Origin: Thiothrix subterranea | GTDB lineage: Bacteria > Pseudomonadota > Gammaproteobacteria > Thiotrichales > Thiotrichaceae | DNA length: 64,000 bases | Direction: 5' to 3' | Assembly: GCF_030930995.1 (NCBI RefSeq) | Contig: NZ_CP133217.1 | Span: 2,098,001 to 2,162,000 of the forward strand | In this document: positions 6,315 to 14,976 of the stretch, in pieces | Layout of the letters: the number at the start of each line of letters is the position of its first letter | How positions within the stretch are numbered: position 1 is the stretch's first letter | Notes under the pieces: model-generated | The model's input: only the letters and a program-made list of their open reading frames with translations | Databases searched by the model: none | What the model was told of the DNA's origin: nothing | Program-made: the position numbers and the translations under genes

Positions 6315-7889
6315 CTATTTGCCTTTCCAACGGACGTGGTACAAGTCATGGCGGCGGTCGCGCAGGTTTTGTACCGAGCCACTGTTGCGGGCTGTCATTA
6401 ATAAATCGGGGCGCAGGTCAGCCATGGCGACCATTTCGGTGTTGGGAGTGGTGTCGGCGGCGATACCGTCACGCGCAAACGGCAGGTCGCACGGGGTGAG
6501 AATGCAGCTTTGTGCGTATTGAATATCCATATTGGCGACGTTGGGCAGGTTGCCACAGTTGCCGGACATGACCACGTAAATCTGATTTTCGACGGCGCGT
6601 GCCTGACAGCAATAACGCACCCGCAAGTAGCCTTGGCGTTCATCGGTACAAAACGGCACAAACAAAATTTGTGCGCCCTGATCAGTGAGGTGGCGTGCCA
6701 GTTCGGGAAATTCCGAGTCGTAGCAAATCAGTACCCCGATGGGGCCGCAATCGGTTTGAATGACATCCAATTCACTGCCGCCTTCGATATTCCACCAATA
6801 CGCTTCATTGGGCGTGGGGTGAATTTTGGCTTGTTCGTGTACCGTGCCGTCACGCAGGAAAATGTAGCAAATGTTTTCCACCCGACCATTCGGCATCCGT
6901 GTGGGGTGAGAGCCGCCGATAATATTGATATTGTAACGCAACGCTAGGTCGCGCATGGCTTCGCGGAATTGCGGGGTGTATTTGGTGAGCGCTTCAATGG
7001 CTTCCACGGGGCTTAATTGCTGCGATTCCATCGACAATAATTGCAGGGTGAAGAGTTCGGGGAACACCACGAAATCGCCCTTGTAATCGGCTACCACATC
7101 AACGAAGTAGGCGACGGCTTCCATGAATTCCTCGAACGATTGCACTTTGCGTTGCTGGTATTGCACCGTGCCGACGCGCACGCTATCGGGTTGGCGTTTG
7201 CCGTAATTTTTCTGTTTGCCTTTGGTGGGCGTCTGCGAAACTTTGGGGTTGCGCCAAATCATGTGGACACCGTAACCCATTGATTGGTGGTCAGCATCCA
7301 GATAATGCGGGATTAAGCCAATGAACTCGAAATCATTGCGTAGCTGGAAGGAAAGTACCGGGTCGCGCTGTTCCTTTTTGCGCACGGCTTCGACATAGGC
7401 TTCCGCTGTACCGTAACGCTTGATGCGGCTGGCAAGCGTGGGCAAACGCCCGGCGAAAACGATGCCTTTCAGCGAGAGGTCTTGCGCTAATTGTTTGCGG
7501 GCATTGTACAGGCGTTGCCCGATGCGGTAGCCACGGTAGTTGGGGTCGACGCATACTTCCATGCCATAGAGCCATTCGCCGTGAGGGTCGTGGGTTGCGA
7601 TGTAGCCGTTGCCGGTAATTTCGCTCCAGTTATGTTGCTTGAAGGCGCGTTTTTCGCTGACGCGCAGGGTGGCGCAGTAACCGACGATTTTTTCGCCTGC
7701 GACCACCACAAATTGCCCTTCTGGGAAGTGATTTTGCTGCCCGATCAGTACCGGCTCTGGGTAGCCGTACATCCCCGTGCCTGCATAAACGCGCTCGGAT
7801 AGCGCGGCAATTTGGGGAATGTCATCCATTTTGGCTTGGCGGAGTTGGAGCTGGATAGCGGGGTCGGAAAGTGTGTTGGTGGTAGCCAT
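6315..7889 (-). CDS. Bifunctional GNAT N-acetyltransferase / carbon-nitrogen hydrolase
   Basis: A 524-residue fusion. Residues about 13-205 are a GNAT acetyltransferase domain, with the acetyl-CoA loop region VDPNYRGYRIGQRLYNARK at about 114-132. Residues about 235-515 are a nitrilase-superfamily domain with the complete Glu-Lys-Cys triad: E278 in FPELF, K355 in AKIHP, and C389 in LICYDSEFPE. This fusion is known in many bacteria (for example the YhcX type). It is probably a cytoplasmic amidase coupled to acyl transfer, but no substrate is established. It is convergent with the glycosyltransferase-like gene, with two bases between the stops. The start ATG at 7889 is the only sensible one before the GNAT domain. 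Confidence 0.9.
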   Translation of the reverse strand: MATTNTLSDPAIQLQLRQAKMDDIPQIAALSERVYAGTGMYGYPEPVLIGQQNHFPEGQFVVVAGEKIVGYCATLRVSEKRAFKQHNWSEITGNGYIATHDPHGEWLYGMEVCVDPNYRGYRIGQRLYNARKQLAQDLSLKGIVFAGRLPTLASRIKRYGTAEAYVEAVRKKEQRDPVLSFQLRNDFEFIGLIPHYLDADHQSMGYGVHMIWRNPKVSQTPTKGKQKNYGKRQPDSVRVGTVQYQQRKVQSFEEFMEAVAYFVDVVADYKGDFVVFPELFTLQLLSMESQQLSPVEAIEALTKYTPQFREAMRDLALRYNINIIGGSHPTRMPNGRVENICYIFLRDGTVHEQAKIHPTPNEAYWWNIEGGSELDVIQTDCGPIGVLICYDSEFPELARHLTDQGAQILFVPFCTDERQGYLRVRYCCQARAVENQIYVVMSGNCGNLPNVANMDIQYAQSCILTPCDLPFARDGIAADTTPNTEMVAMADLRPDLLMTARNSGSVQNLRDRRHDLYHVRWKGK

Positions 7890-8056
7890 ACGAAATAGTT
7901 TTGGTGTTGGTTGAAAGTCGCATGATATACCGAAGTGGCGTAGAGCGTCAGTATCCCGTGCTGGAATACCAAACTCCCGTCAAATACCTTCACTAATCGG
8001 TCATTGAACGGTAAAGTAACGGGCAATTAGACGCCGTTTTGAAGGTCATCATCCTT

Positions 8057-8449
8057 ATGAACATCCCTCCCGAAGACCTCGATTTCCAACCCATCCGTGC
8101 TCAAGGTTCTGGCGGGCAAAACGTCAATAAAGTCTCGACCGCGATTCACCTGCGTTTTGACATCCGTGCTTCTTCATTGCCGGATAGTTGGAAAGAAAAG
8201 TTATTGAGCTACGCTGATCAGCGCATTTCCGGCGATGGCGTGGTGATCATCAAGGCGCAAACCTACAACAGTCAGGAAAAAAACCGGGCGGACGCGCTTG
8301 AACGCTTGCAACAATTAATCGCGGATGCGACCAAAGTGCAAAAGAAGCGCAAAGCCACGCGCCCGACATTTAGCTCGCGGCTCAAGCGGCTTGACAGCAA
8401 GAAAAAGCACAGCGATATTAAATCGGGGCGTAAAAAAGTCGATTATTAG
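8057..8449 (+). CDS. arfB: Alternative ribosome-rescue factor ArfB (peptidyl-tRNA hydrolase)
   Basis: This 130-residue protein rescues ribosomes stalled on mRNAs lacking a stop codon, by hydrolysing peptidyl-tRNA. The class I release-factor signature GSGGQNVNK is present, with GGQ at residues 19-21. The C-terminal tail is strongly basic (KKKHSDIKSGRKK), as needed in this family to enter the mRNA channel. The ATG at 8057 (MNIPPED) is chosen over 8039 because it gives the usual ArfB N-terminus. The last 16 bases of the gene recur exactly after the next gene (see the repeat entry), so its 3' end bounds an inserted segment. Confidence 0.92.
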   Translation: MNIPPEDLDFQPIRAQGSGGQNVNKVSTAIHLRFDIRASSLPDSWKEKLLSYADQRISGDGVVIIKAQTYNSQEKNRADALERLQQLIADATKVQKKRKATRPTFSSRLKRLDSKKKHSDIKSGRKKVDY

Positions 8450-9059
8450 GATTATGTAAGCCGAGGTATGGGATGGAAGCACGGAAATTTGAAACAGTCG
8501 ATGACTTGTTAATGATTCCATCAGTCGATGGGCGCATTGAACTAATTAGCGGTGAAATTGTGAAACGCCCGATGGCGCGGTTTGCTCATGCACAGGTGCA
8601 ATCGGGTCTTTCTGATGAAGTTTCCCCCTTCAAGCGCCGTAAAGGTGCAGATGGCTGGTGGATCGTGACGGAAATCAGCGTGCGTTACAGCGAACATCAT
8701 TGCCCAACTCATGACCTTGCGGGATGGCGTAAGGCGCGTGTGCCTAATCCGCCGGAGGGTGTGGTGGATATTTTGCCTGACTGGGTGTGTGAAATTACTT
8801 CGCCGGGGCATGAAAGCAAGGATTTGGTGATGCACCTGATGCGCTTGCAGGTGTACCAAGTGCCTTATTATTGGGTGATTTCACCAGAGAATAAAACCCT
8901 GATTGCTTATGAGTTGGCGGGTGAGCATTACCGCGTGGTGTTTTCCAAGGAGTGTATTGCGGTTGAAGATTGCCAGCGGGTGTTTATTCCCCCGTTCGCT
9001 GAACAGGGGATTGATTTGGGGTATGTGTTTGGGGTGCTGGCGTAAAAGTCGATTATTAG
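8434..9059. repeat. 16-bp direct repeats flanking the Uma2 gene
   Basis: AAAAGTCGATTATTAG occurs at 8434-8449 (the 3' end of arfB, including its stop codon) and again at 9044-9059, directly after the Uma2 stop. The context is also shared: CGTAAAAAAGTC versus CGTAAAAGTC. The 594 bases between the copies contain only the Uma2 gene and its leader. The simplest reading is insertion of a Uma2 cassette with duplication of the arfB end, or capture by recombination between short repeats. Confidence 0.75.
8473..9045 (+). CDS. Uma2-family PD-(D/E)XK nuclease-like protein
   Basis: A 190-residue protein of the Uma2 family (formerly DUF820), a restriction-endonuclease-like fold common in cyanobacteria and filamentous sulfur bacteria. 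Visible family marks are the opening IELISGEIV, the core LPDWVCEITSPGHESKD (acidic strand, then Lys, as in PD-(D/E)XK sites) and YYWVISPENKTLIAYEL. Cellular function is not established for the family. It is not part of an operon and lies between 16-bp direct repeats, so it looks like a late arrival between arfB and the sulfotransferase gene. The start ATG at 8473 gives the expected N-terminus. Confidence 0.85.
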   Translation: MEARKFETVDDLLMIPSVDGRIELISGEIVKRPMARFAHAQVQSGLSDEVSPFKRRKGADGWWIVTEISVRYSEHHCPTHDLAGWRKARVPNPPEGVVDILPDWVCEITSPGHESKDLVMHLMRLQVYQVPYYWVISPENKTLIAYELAGEHYRVVFSKECIAVEDCQRVFIPPFAEQGIDLGYVFGVLA

Positions 9060-9781
9060 CAATGCTGTTTGGCGTAGTGCAGTAATAGGGCGCGGCTGCT
9101 TTGATAAGCCTGTTCTGCCTGTTGCAATAACGTTGCATCCAGTTCCACATCATCCACAGCTTCCTGAAAATCCGGTAATATTTTGCCTGTGTGAATAAGC
9201 GGTGAGGTATCCCCCGCACCGGCTACGCCCGTTTTGGCAAAGCTGCCGTATTCACGCGATAACGGTTCAGTCACGCCTATCCATTGCTGTAACTGGCTTA
9301 ATAAGCCGTCAGTGTCAGTGCAGACTTTTTCGGTATCAAAATAGTAATAACGTTGCGGGTGTTGCTGGGCGAAGTCGGTAAGGGTTTGCAGCCGTTCAAG
9401 GTAATAGTCGGTTGCGCCAGCGGGTTGCGCATACAAATCATCGCTGGATTTTTGCCGGAATAACTTAATGATGCTTTTAATGGTTGGCTCAGGTTGGCGC
9501 AACGCAATAAAAATGACAGCATCTTGCAACGCGGGCAGGCTTAAATTCAGGCGATAATCGTTGTGCAGCAGTTTATCAAACTGATAGTAACTGTCGGGTT
9601 TTAAGCTATCGTGTTGGCTGTAATCCGTGATTTGCTGGGCTAAATCAGCGTCGCTGAGGTAGCTTTGGTGCATTTCGTAATAGCCATTGATGCGTGGGTG
9701 TGAGCCGATAATATGCCCTAGCAAACTGCTGTAGGCTCGCATGTGGCTGAGTAAAAAGATTCGGGAGTAGGAGTGTTTCAT
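9056..9781 (-). CDS. Sulfotransferase-like protein
   Basis: A 241-residue protein resembling bacterial P-loop sulfotransferases. The N-terminal LLSHMRAYSSLLGHII occupies the position of the 5'-phosphosulfate-binding loop that binds PAPS, and FIALRQPEPTIKSIIKLF resembles the 3'-phosphate-binding segment. The acceptor is unknown. The first 201 bases of the gene and about 16 bases before it are repeated at 11733-11951, so this full copy now lies downstream of a restriction-modification pair while its presumed native promoter sits beyond the truncated copy. Expression may therefore depend on readthrough or on a promoter inside the shared repeat. Confidence 0.75.
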   Translation of the reverse strand: MKHSYSRIFLLSHMRAYSSLLGHIIGSHPRINGYYEMHQSYLSDADLAQQITDYSQHDSLKPDSYYQFDKLLHNDYRLNLSLPALQDAVIFIALRQPEPTIKSIIKLFRQKSSDDLYAQPAGATDYYLERLQTLTDFAQQHPQRYYYFDTEKVCTDTDGLLSQLQQWIGVTEPLSREYGSFAKTGVAGAGDTSPLIHTGKILPDFQEAVDDVELDATLLQQAEQAYQSSRALLLHYAKQHC

Positions 9782-9797
9782 ATTAGGATTTCCGGTC
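9581..9797. repeat. Long direct repeat, copy A (5' part of intact sulfotransferase gene)
   Basis: This copy runs from CTGATAG at 9581 to CCGGTC at 9797. It aligns with 11733-11951, with about nine mismatches by eye over the 201 coding bases and a 2-base indel just upstream of the start codon. Most mismatches are silent, so the copies have drifted since duplication. Together with copy B it brackets a 1.9-kb restriction-modification insert. Confidence 0.92.
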
Positions 9798-9807
9798 GGA
9801 TAAACTT

Positions 9808-11022
9808 TTAGCCCGTTTGGTTGAGTAATTGCTTAGACCACTGTTCATCTATGAATGAGCCAATTTCTAATGCCGGAGAGTTAATGATTTGCACGATATG
9901 ATCGTCAAATTTCATTTCAATTAAATCTTGTGCTTTACGGGTAGCAACAAGAAATGCAATCTTAGCGCCTTTTTTTCTCGCCGCTGCTGATAATTTTGAC
10001 GCTGCTTCATAAAGGGTTTCGTTCTCACGTTGTACTCTTATTGGCACGGGTTTAGCTTGATAGTTTCTTTTTAAGATTGCATCTATTCCCGCGTTGCGAT
10101 GCACAGGCAACACATCAAGACCGGAAAGTATTGCCAGAGATTTTTCATCTGCATTGATATAGGACTCTCGACCTTTAGTTAGCAAGGCGGATTCTGTTTT
10201 TACTAATGTTTCTAGTCGCGATTTAGATAGCTCGATGGCATCTAACGACGAATCTATTCCTATGAACTTTCTGCCTTTCATCTTGGCAGCGACTAGAGTA
10301 GTCCCACTTCCACAAAAGGGGTCAAGCACTAAATCACCTTCATCGGTTGATATTTCAATGATTCGATCAAGCAATAAGATGGGCTTTTGGGTTGGGTATC
10401 CAGTGCGCTCTTTGGCTTTTGGATTTAGAAAAGGGATTTCCCACACATCGGCTAATGGAACACCTTTTTTCTCATCGGCTGAAACAACACTACCATCATC
10501 TTCACGCGCATAAATGGATTTATTGTGTGCATCTCTTGATCTTTTTTGCAGAATTTGATCAATATTGGTGGTTTCTGAATAGTCAGTAAATATTTTATTG
10601 AATTTATAGCTGTCGGTTTTTGCAAAAAATAAGATATTCTGATGATTTGGCGTGAGATTGTTAGCAGAGTTTGACCATCTTTTGTATGACCAAATGATTT
10701 CGGAAAGGAAGTTATCCTGACCAAATACCTCTTCACCAACTAATCTTAGGATGTGGTTAGCCGTTTTATCACAATGAATAAATATTGTACCAGAATCTTT
10801 TAGGATTCTCTTTGCCTCAATCAGGCGATACAACATAAAGTCAGCGTATGTTTTATGGCACGCCCACAGGTCATCAAAGCTATAGTGGGAGGTTCTGTCC
10901 CTAGAACTTAAACTGTGTTTTTTATTCGTGAGAAACGGCGGGTCAAGATAAATCATGTCAATGGTTTTTTCTTGCAAACCCTTCATTATTTCTAGGCAAT
11001 CACCGTGATATAATTCTTTCAT
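9808..11022 (-). CDS. Type II DNA methyltransferase (N4/N6, beta class)
   Basis: This enzyme transfers a methyl group from S-adenosylmethionine to an exocyclic amino group of DNA and should protect the host from the adjacent endonuclease. From the start at 11022 it has 404 residues. The catalytic motif DPPF is at residues 27-30 and the SAM motif DPFCGSGTT follows near residue 235, after YPTQKP. DPPF before the SAM site is the beta-class order, with the target-recognition region between them. The C-terminal ~120 residues are an extra, unrecognised domain. In-frame ATGs at 11040 and 11055 would overlap the endonuclease gene; none has a clear ribosome site, and 11022 gives the usual MKELYHGDCLEIM start. 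Confidence 0.88.
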   Translation of the reverse strand: MKELYHGDCLEIMKGLQEKTIDMIYLDPPFLTNKKHSLSSRDRTSHYSFDDLWACHKTYADFMLYRLIEAKRILKDSGTIFIHCDKTANHILRLVGEEVFGQDNFLSEIIWSYKRWSNSANNLTPNHQNILFFAKTDSYKFNKIFTDYSETTNIDQILQKRSRDAHNKSIYAREDDGSVVSADEKKGVPLADVWEIPFLNPKAKERTGYPTQKPILLLDRIIEISTDEGDLVLDPFCGSGTTLVAAKMKGRKFIGIDSSLDAIELSKSRLETLVKTESALLTKGRESYINADEKSLAILSGLDVLPVHRNAGIDAILKRNYQAKPVPIRVQRENETLYEAASKLSAAARKKGAKIAFLVATRKAQDLIEMKFDDHIVQIINSPALEIGSFIDEQWSKQLLNQTG

Positions 11023-11029
11023 ATTGGAT

Positions 11030-11659
11030 TTAGTCTTCATTTGGAACGCGCTCATTGGCGATTTGTTCCAGTATTGCTTTTAAATCTATGCCTGTTCTTT
11101 TTTGCACATAAGCCCAAGCAGTGTCCCCATAATAATAATGACCACCCACTCCTTGATAAAGCGTTTCAAGAGTTTGCTGAATACGCATGGCTTGCTGACG
11201 ATTTGGGTAATAAAACATGACTCTAATGGGCGTATACCCCGCATCAGCAATGACCTGAATTCTGGTATGTTCTTTGGTGATATGATCACCATCAGTGGTT
11301 GCATCTTTCCATTTTATTTCAAGCGCATCATTTCCTACCAAGCAATCAATTTCAAATGTTTTGGGTTTTTGACCTCTGGTATTTGGGATGCGAAGACTTC
11401 CCGAATCGGGAAAAGCATGTTCAAAACATTTTTTGGTGGCTTGTTCGAGAAATGAACCGGCGTACTTATACAAAAATCGCCCTTTGTTCTGGTAGCTGTC
11501 GATTTGTTGACCTTCAAATTTAGAAATCCCCAACACTCGGTATATCAAATAATGTGATACGTCATCAGCTAACATTTCCTCTGTTCTTGCATCAATCGCC
11601 GCCCGCAGCCGATTTGAGTAGTCGAGAGCCAGAGCATTTATTGCTTGCTGAATTGTCAT
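11030..11659 (-). CDS. Type II restriction endonuclease, possibly ApaLI-like
   Basis: A 209-residue protein located just upstream of the methyltransferase gene on the same strand. It contains FEIDCLVGNDALEIKWKDA, which has the acidic residue, spacer and E-x-K spacing of a PD-(D/E)XK active site, followed by a conserved-looking ITKEHTRIQVIADAGY helix. From memory the overall pattern resembles the ApaLI family (GTGCAC), but specificity cannot be proven here. The ATG at 11659 (MTIQQAI) is preferred; an upstream TTG at 11722 lies next to the repeat border. No controller (C) protein gene is present. Confidence 0.75.
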   Translation of the reverse strand: MTIQQAINALALDYSNRLRAAIDARTEEMLADDVSHYLIYRVLGISKFEGQQIDSYQNKGRFLYKYAGSFLEQATKKCFEHAFPDSGSLRIPNTRGQKPKTFEIDCLVGNDALEIKWKDATTDGDHITKEHTRIQVIADAGYTPIRVMFYYPNRQQAMRIQQTLETLYQGVGGHYYYGDTAWAYVQKRTGIDLKAILEQIANERVPNED

Positions 11660-11726
11660 TGATAGTCTCGAAAAATGGATGAATGCAGCCAAGAATACAT
11701 CATCAGTCCGGTTAAAATCCAAGTTT

Positions 11727-11933
11727 TTATTTCTGATAGTGACTGTCGGGTTTTAAGCTATCGTGTTGGCTGTAATCCGCGATTTGCTGGGCTAAATCAG
11801 CGTCACTGAGGTAGCTTTGGTGCATTTCGTAATAGCCATTGATACGCGGGTGTGAGCCGATAATATGCCCTAGCAAACTGCTGTAGGCTCGCATGTGGCT
11901 GAGTAGGAAGATTCGGGAATAGGGGTGTTTCAT
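11727..11933 (-). pseudogene. Truncated duplicate of the sulfotransferase N-terminus
   Basis: The frame encodes 67 residues nearly identical to the first residues of the intact sulfotransferase (9056-9781) and then stops where the repeat ends, after SHYQK. It lacks the rest of the enzyme and cannot be active. It is the second copy created when the restriction-modification pair inserted, and it keeps the presumed native upstream region. Confidence 0.9.
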
Positions 11934-11951
11934 GGGTTAGGGTTTCCGGTC
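11733..11951. repeat. Long direct repeat, copy B (truncated sulfotransferase fragment)
   Basis: Partner of 9581-9797. It begins with CTGATAG at 11733, ten bases beyond the first possible endonuclease codon, and ends with CCGGTC at 11951. The adjoining 233 bases to the ATPase gene end (11952-12184) are AT-rich and hold no gene that I can support. Confidence 0.92.
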
Positions 11952-12184: not shown

Positions 12185-13723
12185 TTAGAATATTGATAAA
12201 TGTGCTTTCAAAGCATTATGAACAAATAAATTCAGATCAAATAACACTTCATCATCTCCACGAAATGAAAAACGTATACGGTCTTTTTGAGTGTTAATAT
12301 TTCCAAGAACACCAATTCTAAATAAGTCTTTTACTACTTCTTTTAGATTATGACTTTCTAAGAGTGAAGCCGTTTCTTTATGATCTTTTGCAACTTTTTC
12401 TGCTCTGTCGCTTAATTGAGTAAATGAGCTTATTTGTTTGTATCCATAAAATATATATTTAATGCCATCTATGTCTGAAGGACGATATTTTGCTTTTAGT
12501 TCTTCAGTAATTTCTACCCATGATGCAGTGGAGTACATTTTTCTTATAGCCTCCAAACCTTGTAATATAAAGCTTTCTTCATTCGGATATTGATCTTGAA
12601 CTGAGAGCATAAGACGGACAACATCGCGTGGGCGATACCATGAGTTATGTAAAATATATACTTGAGATCTTTGACCATTTATATTGATCGGAAAGTATTG
12701 CTTCCATAAATCATTTTCAGATAAATTATCCATTCCCGCTTCAGCTCGCGCATTATTTATTCTTTTTTCTACAATGTTTAACATTGGTTGCTGTGCTGCA
12801 TCGAGTCCAGGGCGATTCCAAAGTATGGTTGAACCGAAATCAGCAGTTGGTTTATTTATTTCTTTTCCAAGTGAGTCTACTGAATTCAGTACTTCTGAAC
12901 GAATTGCCGCATAAAGACATAAGTTAAATCCTTTTTTCTTTGATATGGCGTTTATTTTCTCGATTGAAACAATTAAATCCCTAACTAAATGTGAGTCTCG
13001 TTGATATTGTTTACTTGTTTGGTAGTTAAGTTCAAGTTCATCAAAAAATATATTTAATCTTTGATGATCAGGTTCGAGGTTTTTGAAAGCATTATCTGCT
13101 CTTCTAACTAATTCATTAAAATTTACTTTTGCTCTTCCATTCTCGTCCCAGTCAAACTCTAATCCAAGCTTGGGCGAGTCACTAATTTCTATATGACCTT
13201 TTCTAATATATGGAATTAGTCGACTTAATTTTGATTCTTCTGGTTTAATAACTTCTGATGTCACTAGTGCCATGAAACTAGACAAGTTTCCATTTTTCTG
13301 AAAGGGACATGCATCTAGGTCTTGTATAGAAGATACTATTTTTCTATAAATAAACCATCGCCAAACTGTTTCGTAATCATTTCCTTCATAATCTTCACTA
13401 TTTTCTTTCGTTATTTGAATCCTTGCTGCCTTTGAAAAATCTTTGCGTAAATCTTCATCAACCTCAGACTTAAATAATATAAAAGCCGATATGGAGTTAA
13501 TGTCTTCATCAAGCTTTATAGAGATATAACGTAGTAATGCTGTTTTTCCAGTTCCTTTCAAGCCAAGTACATAGTATTTGGTTTTTTCAAAGTAAGCATT
13601 AATATTTAGTGCCGGTGGACTAACAAAAGAATCTTTGAATCTTTTAATTTCTTCGGGAGAAGAACTCAATAGCTCATTCTTTGCATCAGTTGTCCCAATA
13701 TAAATATCCTTAAGTTTAAGCAC
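12185..13723 (-). CDS. P-loop ATPase, Sll1717-like, possible defence or stress gene
   Basis: A 512-residue protein with Walker A GLKGTGKT at residues 54-61, and LNIFFDELELNY near 240 as Walker B. The start MLKLKDIYIGTTDAKNEL and the overall layout match what I recall of the 'P-loop ATPase, Sll1717 family' (FunZ-like). Such genes are scattered and often lie among defence genes; the biochemical role is unknown. The sequence is clearly richer in A and T than the housekeeping genes around it, with A/T-ending codons, which points to transfer. It stands alone on its strand between the restriction-modification remnant and two toxin-antitoxin loci. The C-terminal ~100 residues include a possible winged-helix-like region (LLESHNLKEVVKDLFRIGVL). 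Confidence 0.65.
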   Translation of the reverse strand: MLKLKDIYIGTTDAKNELLSSSPEEIKRFKDSFVSPPALNINAYFEKTKYYVLGLKGTGKTALLRYISIKLDEDINSISAFILFKSEVDEDLRKDFSKAARIQITKENSEDYEGNDYETVWRWFIYRKIVSSIQDLDACPFQKNGNLSSFMALVTSEVIKPEESKLSRLIPYIRKGHIEISDSPKLGLEFDWDENGRAKVNFNELVRRADNAFKNLEPDHQRLNIFFDELELNYQTSKQYQRDSHLVRDLIVSIEKINAISKKKGFNLCLYAAIRSEVLNSVDSLGKEINKPTADFGSTILWNRPGLDAAQQPMLNIVEKRINNARAEAGMDNLSENDLWKQYFPININGQRSQVYILHNSWYRPRDVVRLMLSVQDQYPNEESFILQGLEAIRKMYSTASWVEITEELKAKYRPSDIDGIKYIFYGYKQISSFTQLSDRAEKVAKDHKETASLLESHNLKEVVKDLFRIGVLGNINTQKDRIRFSFRGDDEVLFDLNLFVHNALKAHLSIF

Positions 13724-13923
13724 TGTTTGCTCCTATTATCCTAGTTGTTTCCGAGTGTGACATTTATTAGGTGAAAATAGCATCGAATGAATTATGTTAA
13801 AATATCTATTGTAGGTAATAACTTGTCATCATCATGGCGCATTTCCCCGTTTGCTAATCAATTGCGCAGGATTATACAGCCGACGAACGGTAGTTGCATT
13901 ATTTTTTATGCCGGATTCGATAA

Positions 13924-14133
13924 CTACGAAATATCAATTGTCCGGTGCTGGCGCACACAGTCACGCAAGTACAAGTTGATGAGGCTTTGGTAAGGTACAC
14001 CCGTGTTTTCAGCCATTTCTTTGAAATATCCTACCACATCTTCGCCCAGCCGAATGGTGACGGACTTTTTCAGTTTGGAGGCCTAGGGATTTTTGCGAGA
14101 TTTCATTTGAGATAGGTCATATTCCGCTTTCAT
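13924..14133 (-). pseudogene. BrnA-like antitoxin with in-frame amber codon
   Basis: Reading from ATG 14133, the frame gives MKAEYDLSQMKSRKNP, then TAG, then ASKLKKSVTIRLGEDVV and on through YQSLINLYLRDC to a natural stop at 13924. Apart from the amber at codon 17 (14085-14083), the product is a typical BrnA/CopG ribbon-helix-helix antitoxin of 69 residues. Relatives usually have Tyr at that position (recalled), so one base change explains it. Directly upstream in the overlapping frame, ERQHYKGSVP and a TGA overlapping the BrnA ATG look like the C-terminus of a BrnT toxin, but the rest of the toxin is missing and a stop interrupts the frame about 25 codons back. The locus is therefore a dead BrnTB pair. 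Confidence 0.75.
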
Positions 14134-14272
14134 GGCACGCTACCTTTGTAGTGTTGACGTTCACAATGGCAAAATTTCATCATGGTTACATGGTATGTAC
14201 AAGATTCGGCGTGTCAAGTGACAACAGCACACCGCAGTAAACATTATCCGATGTTTCGGGCTTTGCAATCGG

Positions 14273-14289
14273 TATTACTCTAGGTAATA
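14273..14289. promoter_or_regulatory. Palindromic operator candidate before AbrB-PIN operon
   Basis: TATTAC at 14273-14278 and GTAATA at 14284-14289 form a perfect 6-bp inverted repeat around TCTAG. A further half site, GTAATAC, is at 14303-14309, 15 bases before the antitoxin ATG. AbrB-type antitoxins commonly autoregulate by binding such palindromes; that this one does so is inferred. Confidence 0.5.
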
Positions 14290-14323
14290 ATGTGAGTCTA
14301 AAGTAATACTGGAGAGCTTTGGT

Positions 14324-14581
14324 ATGAATGCGTTTGTATCGACCGTGACGCAAAAGGGACAAGTTACGATTCCCAAAAGTGTGCGAGATAATCTGCATTT
14401 AGTCACGGGGGATAAGATTGAGTTTGTTCTGAATGATCGGGGTGAAGTGGTTATCAAGCCCGTCACCCGCAAGGTGGCAGAAGTTGCCGGGTTGTTGAGC
14501 AAGTACAAAAAATCCCACCCGATAAGTATTGAGGCAATGGATCAGGCTGTTGCCGAATACATCAGGAATGAGGCGTTATGA
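14324..14581 (+). CDS. AbrB/MazE/SpoVT-family antitoxin
   Basis: An 85-residue DNA-binding antitoxin. The N-terminal swapped-hairpin AbrB domain is evident: VTQKGQVTIPKSVRDNLHL at residues 7-25, then GDKIEFVLNDRGEVVIKP. The C-terminal ~35 residues should wrap the toxin. The stop overlaps the next gene by four bases (ATGA), so antitoxin and toxin are translationally coupled in the usual antitoxin-first order. A perfect inverted repeat 35 bases upstream is a likely autoregulatory site. Confidence 0.92.
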   Translation: MNAFVSTVTQKGQVTIPKSVRDNLHLVTGDKIEFVLNDRGEVVIKPVTRKVAEVAGLLSKYKKSHPISIEAMDQAVAEYIRNEAL

Positions 14582-14976
14582 GGGCTGTTGATACCAATGT
14601 GCTGGTGCGCTTTTTGGTGCAGGATGACGAAAAGCAGGCGCAAATCGCCACTCAGTTATTGGCGGATGCTGAAACGGACAAGCAGCCTTTATTTGTGAGC
14701 AATGTGGTCGTGTTGGAAATGATGTGGGTGCTGAAAAGTGTCTATGAAGTGCCGCGTGATGAAATCCTAGACTCTCTAAGTGAATTGCTGTCTATGGTTG
14801 CGTTGGAGTTCCAAGATTCATTGAGCGTCCGCGATTTCGTTAGCAGCGCCCAACACAATACTTATGATTTGGCAGACCTGCTGATTTGTCACGTAGCGCG
14901 GGGCAAAGGCTGCGATACCACGCTGACTTTTGACAAAAAAGCTGCCAAAGCACCGCATTTTACCAAGTTGCAATAA
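14578..14976 (+). CDS. PIN-domain toxin (VapC type)
   Basis: A 132-residue PIN ribonuclease. The acidic metal-binding residues are visible: Asp4 in RAVDTNVLVRFL, Glu near 47 in VVVLEMMWVL, Asp near 101-104 in YDLADLLI, and Asp near 121 in TFDKKA. Family members cleave tRNA or rRNA when freed from the antitoxin. All key acids are present, so the toxin appears active, unlike the decayed BrnTB pair 500 bases away. It overlaps the antitoxin gene by four bases. Confidence 0.92.
   Translation: MRAVDTNVLVRFLVQDDEKQAQIATQLLADAETDKQPLFVSNVVVLEMMWVLKSVYEVPRDEILDSLSELLSMVALEFQDSLSVRDFVSSAQHNTYDLADLLICHVARGKGCDTTLTFDKKAAKAPHFTKLQ

Follow-up and report, generated by a model that had tools for sequence, protein, structure and literature searches.

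An ApaLI-type restriction-modification pair between direct repeats of a sulfotransferase 5′ end, beside a hotspot for small gene pairs in Thiothrix

How restriction-modification (R-M) gene pairs that carry no transposase enter chromosomes with long duplications is, to our knowledge, still open. Such insertions were reportedly described by Nobusato et al. (2000) and Furuta et al. (2010) as having no transposase, repeats of host-gene sequence, and single copies of the repeat in relatives free of the R-M genes. The same question is raised by a locus of Thiothrix subterranea, studied here in a stretch of 64,000 nucleotides (the window; contig NZ_CP133217.1, positions 2,098,001 to 2,162,000), in which an ApaLI-type R-M pair lies between an intact sulfotransferase gene and a second copy of the 5′ end of that gene. 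Literature on ApaLI with horizontal transfer and on restriction-modification in Thiothrix contained, judged by title, no work on this locus.

In a whole-genome search, positions 9570–9800 matched exactly two places, the query itself and the right-hand copy, with 94% identity (E 2.9e-92); a separate repeat finding gave 212 nt at 93% for the same pair (Table 1). The direct repeats noticed in a previous sequence-only reading were thus borne out to the base, and its count of about nine mismatches became, upon exact alignment, 9 substitutions in 196 coding positions (11738–11933). The intact gene of 241 codons and the stub of about 67 codons were also as described there, the stub open reading frame (ORF) being 11727–11933, with 68 codons, approximately 67 of them sulfotransferase. 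The PF13469 match of the intact gene is only just above the family cut-off. Both ORFs and profiles agree with the statement that only an endonuclease and a methyltransferase gene, and no transposase, stand between the repeats. A lack of transposase, integrase and inverted terminal repeats counts among the criteria for R-M insertion with long target duplication. Inspection by eye of the ORFs between the repeats revealed nothing resembling a transposase or integrase, and the two ends of the insert, compared over their last 65–70 nt or so, share at best an inverted match of 6 nt. The R-M pair is complete and has direct repeats of host sequence, approximately 218 bp long, on both sides.

Table 1. 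Coordinates of the features at the locus (positions in the window)
Feature	Position	Strand	Evidence
Intact sulfotransferase gene, 241 codons	9056–9781	-	ORF; PF13469 Sulfotransfer_3, E 1.1e-6
Left repeat copy: sulfotransferase 5′ end plus 16 bp upstream	9581–9797	-	Genome search
Inserted block, about 1.94 kb: R-M genes and some 73 bp ahead of the endonuclease	9798–11732	-	Locus comparison
DNA methyltransferase (N6_N4_Mtase)	9808–11055	-	PF01555, 2.2e-54; PADLOC MTase_II, 1.5e-172
ApaLI-type restriction endonuclease	11030–11659	-	PF09499, 1.6e-92 (longer ORF); PADLOC REase_II, 9.5e-105
Right repeat copy: stub of the sulfotransferase 5′ end (about 67 codons) and bases upstream of it	11733–11951	-	Genome search
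Second cargo, behind the stub: Sll1717-family P-loop ATPase	12185–13723	-	NF047389, 6.2e-88
Right border stretch	13794–14220	n/a	Parts recur in genus genomes

The locus was compared among 16 genomes of the genus (G000, the window's own, and 15 others, several of them drafts). A sulfotransferase match was found in 14 of them, and the R-M pair in two, G000 and G001. Two adjacent sulfotransferase 5′ ends were present in both R-M carriers and in none of the 12 sulfotransferase carriers without the pair, which have a single 5′ end at the locus. In G001 the gene order is that of the window and the R-M block is 97.5% identical; about 26 bp are missing from its right copy at the edge facing the R-M genes, between two similar T-rich stretches, and this is read as a later deletion. 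G006 matches the window at 6316–9793 and again from 13819 rightward, with one 5′ end and different cargo between. No relative with both immediate flanks of the window and without the insert was found among the 16 genomes, nor was a loss product of the R-M pair with matching flanks. The earlier proposal of an insertion with a long duplication thus stood as far as the confinement of paired 5′ ends to the two R-M carriers and the single copies in other relatives are concerned; an empty site with both flanks the same was not among them, and one simple target duplication stood only in part, for this reason and because of the state of the repeat copies described below. R-M-less relatives carrying two repeat copies, which would have spoken against any such insertion, were not encountered; the second sulfotransferase copy of G015 is a separate one, more than 1 Mb away.

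Next to the sulfotransferase 5′ end lies a hotspot occupied by small gene pairs, defence or toxin genes in several cases. In each of the eight close congeners, homology to the upstream sequence of the window stops 3–42 nt before the ATG, and other cargo lies beyond. In seven of these eight, all without the R-M pair, other gene pairs on the same strand were found there in mechanically called ORFs; they are of six kinds, G004 and G012 being the same and G010 unclear. The cargo includes 1) a PemK-type toxin pair in G004 and, by sequence, likewise in G012; 2) an LprI-domain gene and a gene without profile match in G006; 3) JukB (PADLOC, 1.3e-117) and a DUF3944 protein in G008; 4) a protein without match and a second, unscanned ORF in G011; 5) a protein without match and an HNH/GmrSD_C protein in G002; and 6) a PIN and an AbrB-like ORF (AbrB by eye) in G015. 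Behind its stub, G001 has a DUF6998 gene resembling methyl-directed restriction endonucleases, where the window has the Sll1717-family ATPase, a protein with no PADLOC match. Defence or toxin profile matches were thus obtained for the cargo of G002, G004, G008 and G015 and for the gene behind the stub of G001; none was obtained for the scanned G006 proteins or for the one of two G011 ORFs that was scanned. Different defence or toxin cargo therefore occupies one conserved position in related genomes, as is the case in a defence-gene hotspot. On the right, parts of the border stretch recur next to the cargo in G001, G002, G006, G008 and G011, and also beside the second sulfotransferase gene of G015 and elsewhere in the genus.

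The gene bordering the hotspot seems itself to pass between species. Its body is 91–96% identical to that of the window in nine congeners, in which proS is 82–94% identical. The contrast was clear in G002 (sulfotransferase 91% vs proS 82.5% and glycosyltransferase 76.7%), G008 (94% vs 90% and 81.5%), G011 (91% vs 85%) and G015 (91% vs 84%), and small in G001 and G006. The glycosyltransferase gene was present in the fetched stretch of four of the nine, with identities to the window of 94% in G001, 92% in G010, 82% in G008 and 77% in G002; the names proS, glycosyltransferase and nitrilase were assigned by reading the sequences, with no profile search. The sulfotransferase is not simply slow-evolving, because its body is just 66–68% identical in four other congeners (G005, G007, G013 and G014), where proS is 80–83% identical. 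Exchange between species is indicated by these figures, not proven.

Comparison of the repeat copies suggested that recombination has probably reworked them, since the left copies of the two species agree fully only in the part next to the R-M genes and the window stub is closer to the G004 gene than to its own partner. Between the left copies of the window and G001, no difference was found in the 73 columns beside the R-M pair and 12 were found in the 139 columns farther away (Fisher p 0.009, with the split point set after the data had been seen); approximately 75 bp of the left copy nearest the R-M pair are thus identical in G001. A 2-base gap just upstream of the ATG is exclusive to these two left copies. 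The right copies of the two genomes have no exclusive states in common, and different cargo lies behind them. The window stub differs from the intact gene of G004, a genome with 89% identity in proS, at 2 of 196 positions, from its own left copy at 9 of 196 and from the G001 stub at 16 of 186; seven changes are private to the G001 stub, as a decaying fragment would show. The repeat copies thus resemble the alleles of different species in different parts, an indication of recombination that falls short of proof.

With these observations, the explanation that we favour, tentatively and short of calling it probable, is homologous recombination at the sulfotransferase on one side combined with illegitimate joining on the other. 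Incoming DNA of a relative would have carried a sulfotransferase allele with the R-M pair directly upstream. One side would have been joined by homologous recombination within the sulfotransferase, and the other by illegitimate joining at approximately codon 67 of the resident gene. The incoming 5′ end would then complete the intact gene, and the resident 5′ end would stay as a stub together with its former upstream region and cargo. From the order of parts we infer both this route and the uptake of free DNA as the source. In favour of it, the R-M pair joins the sulfotransferase side 16 nt upstream of the ATG, and homology of the eight close congeners to the window likewise ends 3–42 nt from the ATG.

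Several observations weigh against this explanation. The expected donor, with the R-M pair upstream of a single sulfotransferase, was not found among the 16 genomes. The right end of the insert is the same in both species and therefore points to one event, not to repeated capture, and the mosaic of the left copies could postdate an ordinary target duplication. The arfB-like gene to the left of the sulfotransferase was found in five congeners (G001, G004, G006, G010 and G012) and is 94–96% identical in each; in G004, G010 and G012 it is 94% identical vs 88–89% for proS, so that a larger block may have been exchanged in these three or the local background may be higher.

A wider view of the hotspot, conceivable but doubtful, is that cargo in this genus travels together with a short piece of the anchor gene, the sulfotransferase 5′ end serving as a portable homology arm, and enters new genomes by recombination there. 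Incoming cargo would either replace the resident cargo or stack in front of it. If this were true, the long "target duplication" would be a leftover of stacking instead of being made by a self-mobilising R-M unit; were it general, many long target duplications of R-M systems would be explained by ordinary recombination around an anchor gene. The locus can be read together with its hotspot: relatives have one 5′ end and different cargo at the border, and the repeats look recombined. It thereby makes recombination around an anchor gene a testable idea.

The strongest competitor to homologous and illegitimate joining, one we regard as possible without expecting it, is a strict long target duplication, in which the R-M unit entered the sulfotransferase 5′ region, approximately 218 bp of target were copied to both sides, and the copies were altered later. 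The single 5′ ends of R-M-less relatives agree with it, as does the right junction, which is the same in the window and G001 apart from the deletion of about 26 bp in the latter. A strict duplication is opposed by the repeat copies, which do not pair as if they had been made identical in an ancestor, and by the restriction of left-copy identity to the part near the R-M pair.

Other ApaLI loci also bear on a strict duplication. Scanning of genome contigs yielded 318 candidate ApaLI loci, of which 80 were kept for comparison. Among the loci with at least 300 bp on each side, direct repeats within 1 kb (at least 40 bp, at least 65% identity) were found at 6 of 70 (L075, L081, L089, L103, L133 and L137), compared with 3 of 394 shifted control windows, which is in favour of a strict duplication (Fisher p 0.0006; p is 0.012 if two doubtful loci are taken as negative; the control windows overlap and derive from the same loci, and the p-values are a guide only). 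L103 has a third repeat copy in its contig, the L081 repeats are only 65% identical, and L133 reaches the contig end; L089 (with gaps of N) and L137 (with a decayed left copy) remain as internal, gene-like cases. For L137, a search of 60 genomes for an empty site gave a best match outside its own genome of 42% identity. At L120, L121 and L086 repeats lie farther out, those of L086 at both contig ends. When flanks of up to 4 kb were compared at the 65 loci having 500 bp or more on each side, 12 showed a left–right match of any kind, and some of these matches were weak, inverted or distant. The R-M pair of the window has DNA homology to the 12 nearest loci compared only within 9823–11670, which covers the genes and about 10 nt upstream; the genes therefore move without constant flanks. 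In L075 (9645–11867) the ApaLI pair is bounded by repeats of approximately 50 bp, the ends of which resemble what we take to be attC core sites, suggesting an integron cassette.

Integration of a circular DNA, bearing the R-M pair and a sulfotransferase 5′ fragment, into the resident gene by a single crossover would yield exactly the order of parts seen, and we consider it unlikely. A similar layout exists at thiC in two Verrucomicrobia-type records (L120 and L121), where the R-M pair lies between an intact thiC end and a second thiC 3′ fragment of about 480 bp, and an ApaLI-type pair occurs on a 6-kb plasmid of Psychrobacter. Against it, no such circle was found (the whole interval was searched as DNA in plasmid records and the endonuclease protein alone in phage records, viral contigs being outside the search), and the origin of the sulfotransferase fragment on the circle would still be required. 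As a vehicle, a plasmid was set aside because two plasmid records matched the interval only partially (35% and 7% covered), and a phage because the endonuclease protein was matched only in part, in three Tenacibaculum phage records. An intact gene remains after joining by homology on one side, after a strict duplication and after integration of a circle alike, because the duplicated part holds the complete 5′ end of the gene.

The thiC layout belongs to a series of its own. Fragments of the thiC 3′ end are repeated behind thiC and at other places, and some genomes have several of them (L120, L121, L208–L213 and L214–L243; genomes related to G451). They start at variable codons, and those of L120 and L121 end at or near the thiC stop codon. 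A conserved sequence of approximately 65 bp precedes many of them; 20 of 97 genomes contain a match to it (at E values of 0.001 or lower, some of them marginal). A thiC match followed it in 20 of 30 loci fetched with it (tblastn), some of the other 10 being cut by the contig end, short or decayed. The thiC copies of L120 and L121 enclose ApaLI R-M genes; other such intervals contain, by eye only, other DNA-methyltransferase-like, TIR-like and further genes. These units look like a cassette-like series of mobile units, and the anatomy of L120 and L121 belongs to that separate series; nothing on it was found among the titles in the literature search.

It is very unlikely that a tandem duplication of the sulfotransferase came first and that the R-M pair then replaced most of one copy. 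G015 shows that second sulfotransferase copies occur, but that copy is the distant one mentioned above, and adjacent copies are missing from all 12 R-M-less carriers. Insertion by an insertion sequence (IS), transposon or integrase, with the long repeat as a by-product, is largely refuted and highly improbable: an IS-like insert with a 9-bp repeat in the second G015 copy shows that such elements do land in the sulfotransferase, but at this locus neither a transposase-like or integrase-like ORF nor terminal inverted repeats nor a short target duplication was seen, the repeat is more than 20 times longer than 9 bp, and no IS or integrase scar that could account for the duplication was found. In G015 (L032, 5297–8361), the insert that splits the second gene contains two adjacent, near-identical transposase-like ORFs (IS4-like by eye), with the 9-bp repeat at its ends.

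The endonuclease is predicted to belong to the ApaLI family by its match to PF09499, which scored 308.9 bits against a cut-off of 25, spanned profile positions 2–188 of 189 and aligned the conserved core. Its start at 11659 was picked from alignment with relatives, and the TTG listed as its start, at 11722, probably lies too far upstream. The hexamer GTGCAC, which we take to be the ApaLI cleavage site, occurs twice in the window vs 13.0 expected; restriction-site avoidance was dropped as an interpretation, since 19 of the 64 palindromic hexamers have a still lower ratio. An ApaLI endonuclease gene 83–84% identical to that of the window was seen in G030, listed under the same family, broken across two contig ends (L039, L040 and L085); it adjoins a methyltransferase gene with a long open frame.

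The methyltransferase gene overlaps the endonuclease gene, and its stop codon is 26 nt upstream of the intact sulfotransferase gene. Because this gap leaves scant room for a full promoter, transcription of the sulfotransferase probably comes by read-through from the methyltransferase or starts at a promoter within that gene; promoter-like matches were at chance level (7 found vs 6.8 expected). In the earlier reading the insertion would have moved the sulfotransferase away from its promoter. A position close behind another ORF is common at this locus and not special to the window, the sulfotransferase being at most 53 nt behind, or overlapping, a same-strand ORF in five of the eight close congeners (G004, G006, G011, G012 and G015).

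Two further gene sets near the locus vary among the congeners. A Uma2-family gene (8473–9045) is located between exact 16-bp direct repeats (8434–8449 and 9044–9059); it is present in G004 and G006 and absent in G001, G010 and G012, where the flanks are joined at one copy. A MazE/PIN pair (14270–14976), to the right of the hotspot in the window, sits to the left of the arfB-like gene in G010 and has thus also changed place in the neighbourhood of the locus.

Defence-gene hotspots beside conserved genes are a general concept. The present site resembles them in having a fixed border gene and varying small gene pairs, several with defence or toxin matches. It departs from them in its border gene, which itself seems to pass from one species to another and is partly duplicated with one cargo. 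In Helicobacter pylori, direct repeats lie on both sides of six type II systems, strains without these systems have only one copy, and deletion between the repeats has been proposed (PMC10423294). The likeness lies in the direct repeats around R-M genes and the single copy where these are absent, and the difference in the genus and in no loss product with matching flanks having been found here. Homology-facilitated illegitimate recombination, described from experiments with small linear DNA in the portion of the work cited (PMC3240628), would give the order of parts in the window, with one end homologous and the other illegitimate; unlike in the experiments outlined there, the route here is read from the anatomy alone. 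Work on merodiploids obtained through transformation (PMC3784515) deals with larger duplications, located between repeats, and was left aside. The closest likeness in kind is to R-M genes inserted with long, variable target duplications, in the sections cited of two reports (PMC3031569, PMC3874152), where R-M genes are the inserted unit and the duplication is long. The window differs from the cases in those sections in that the site is a hotspot with other cargo in congeners and the repeats bear traces of alleles of other species. It thus belongs to a class of R-M insertion already described, to which a hotspot with an exchanged anchor gene is added information.

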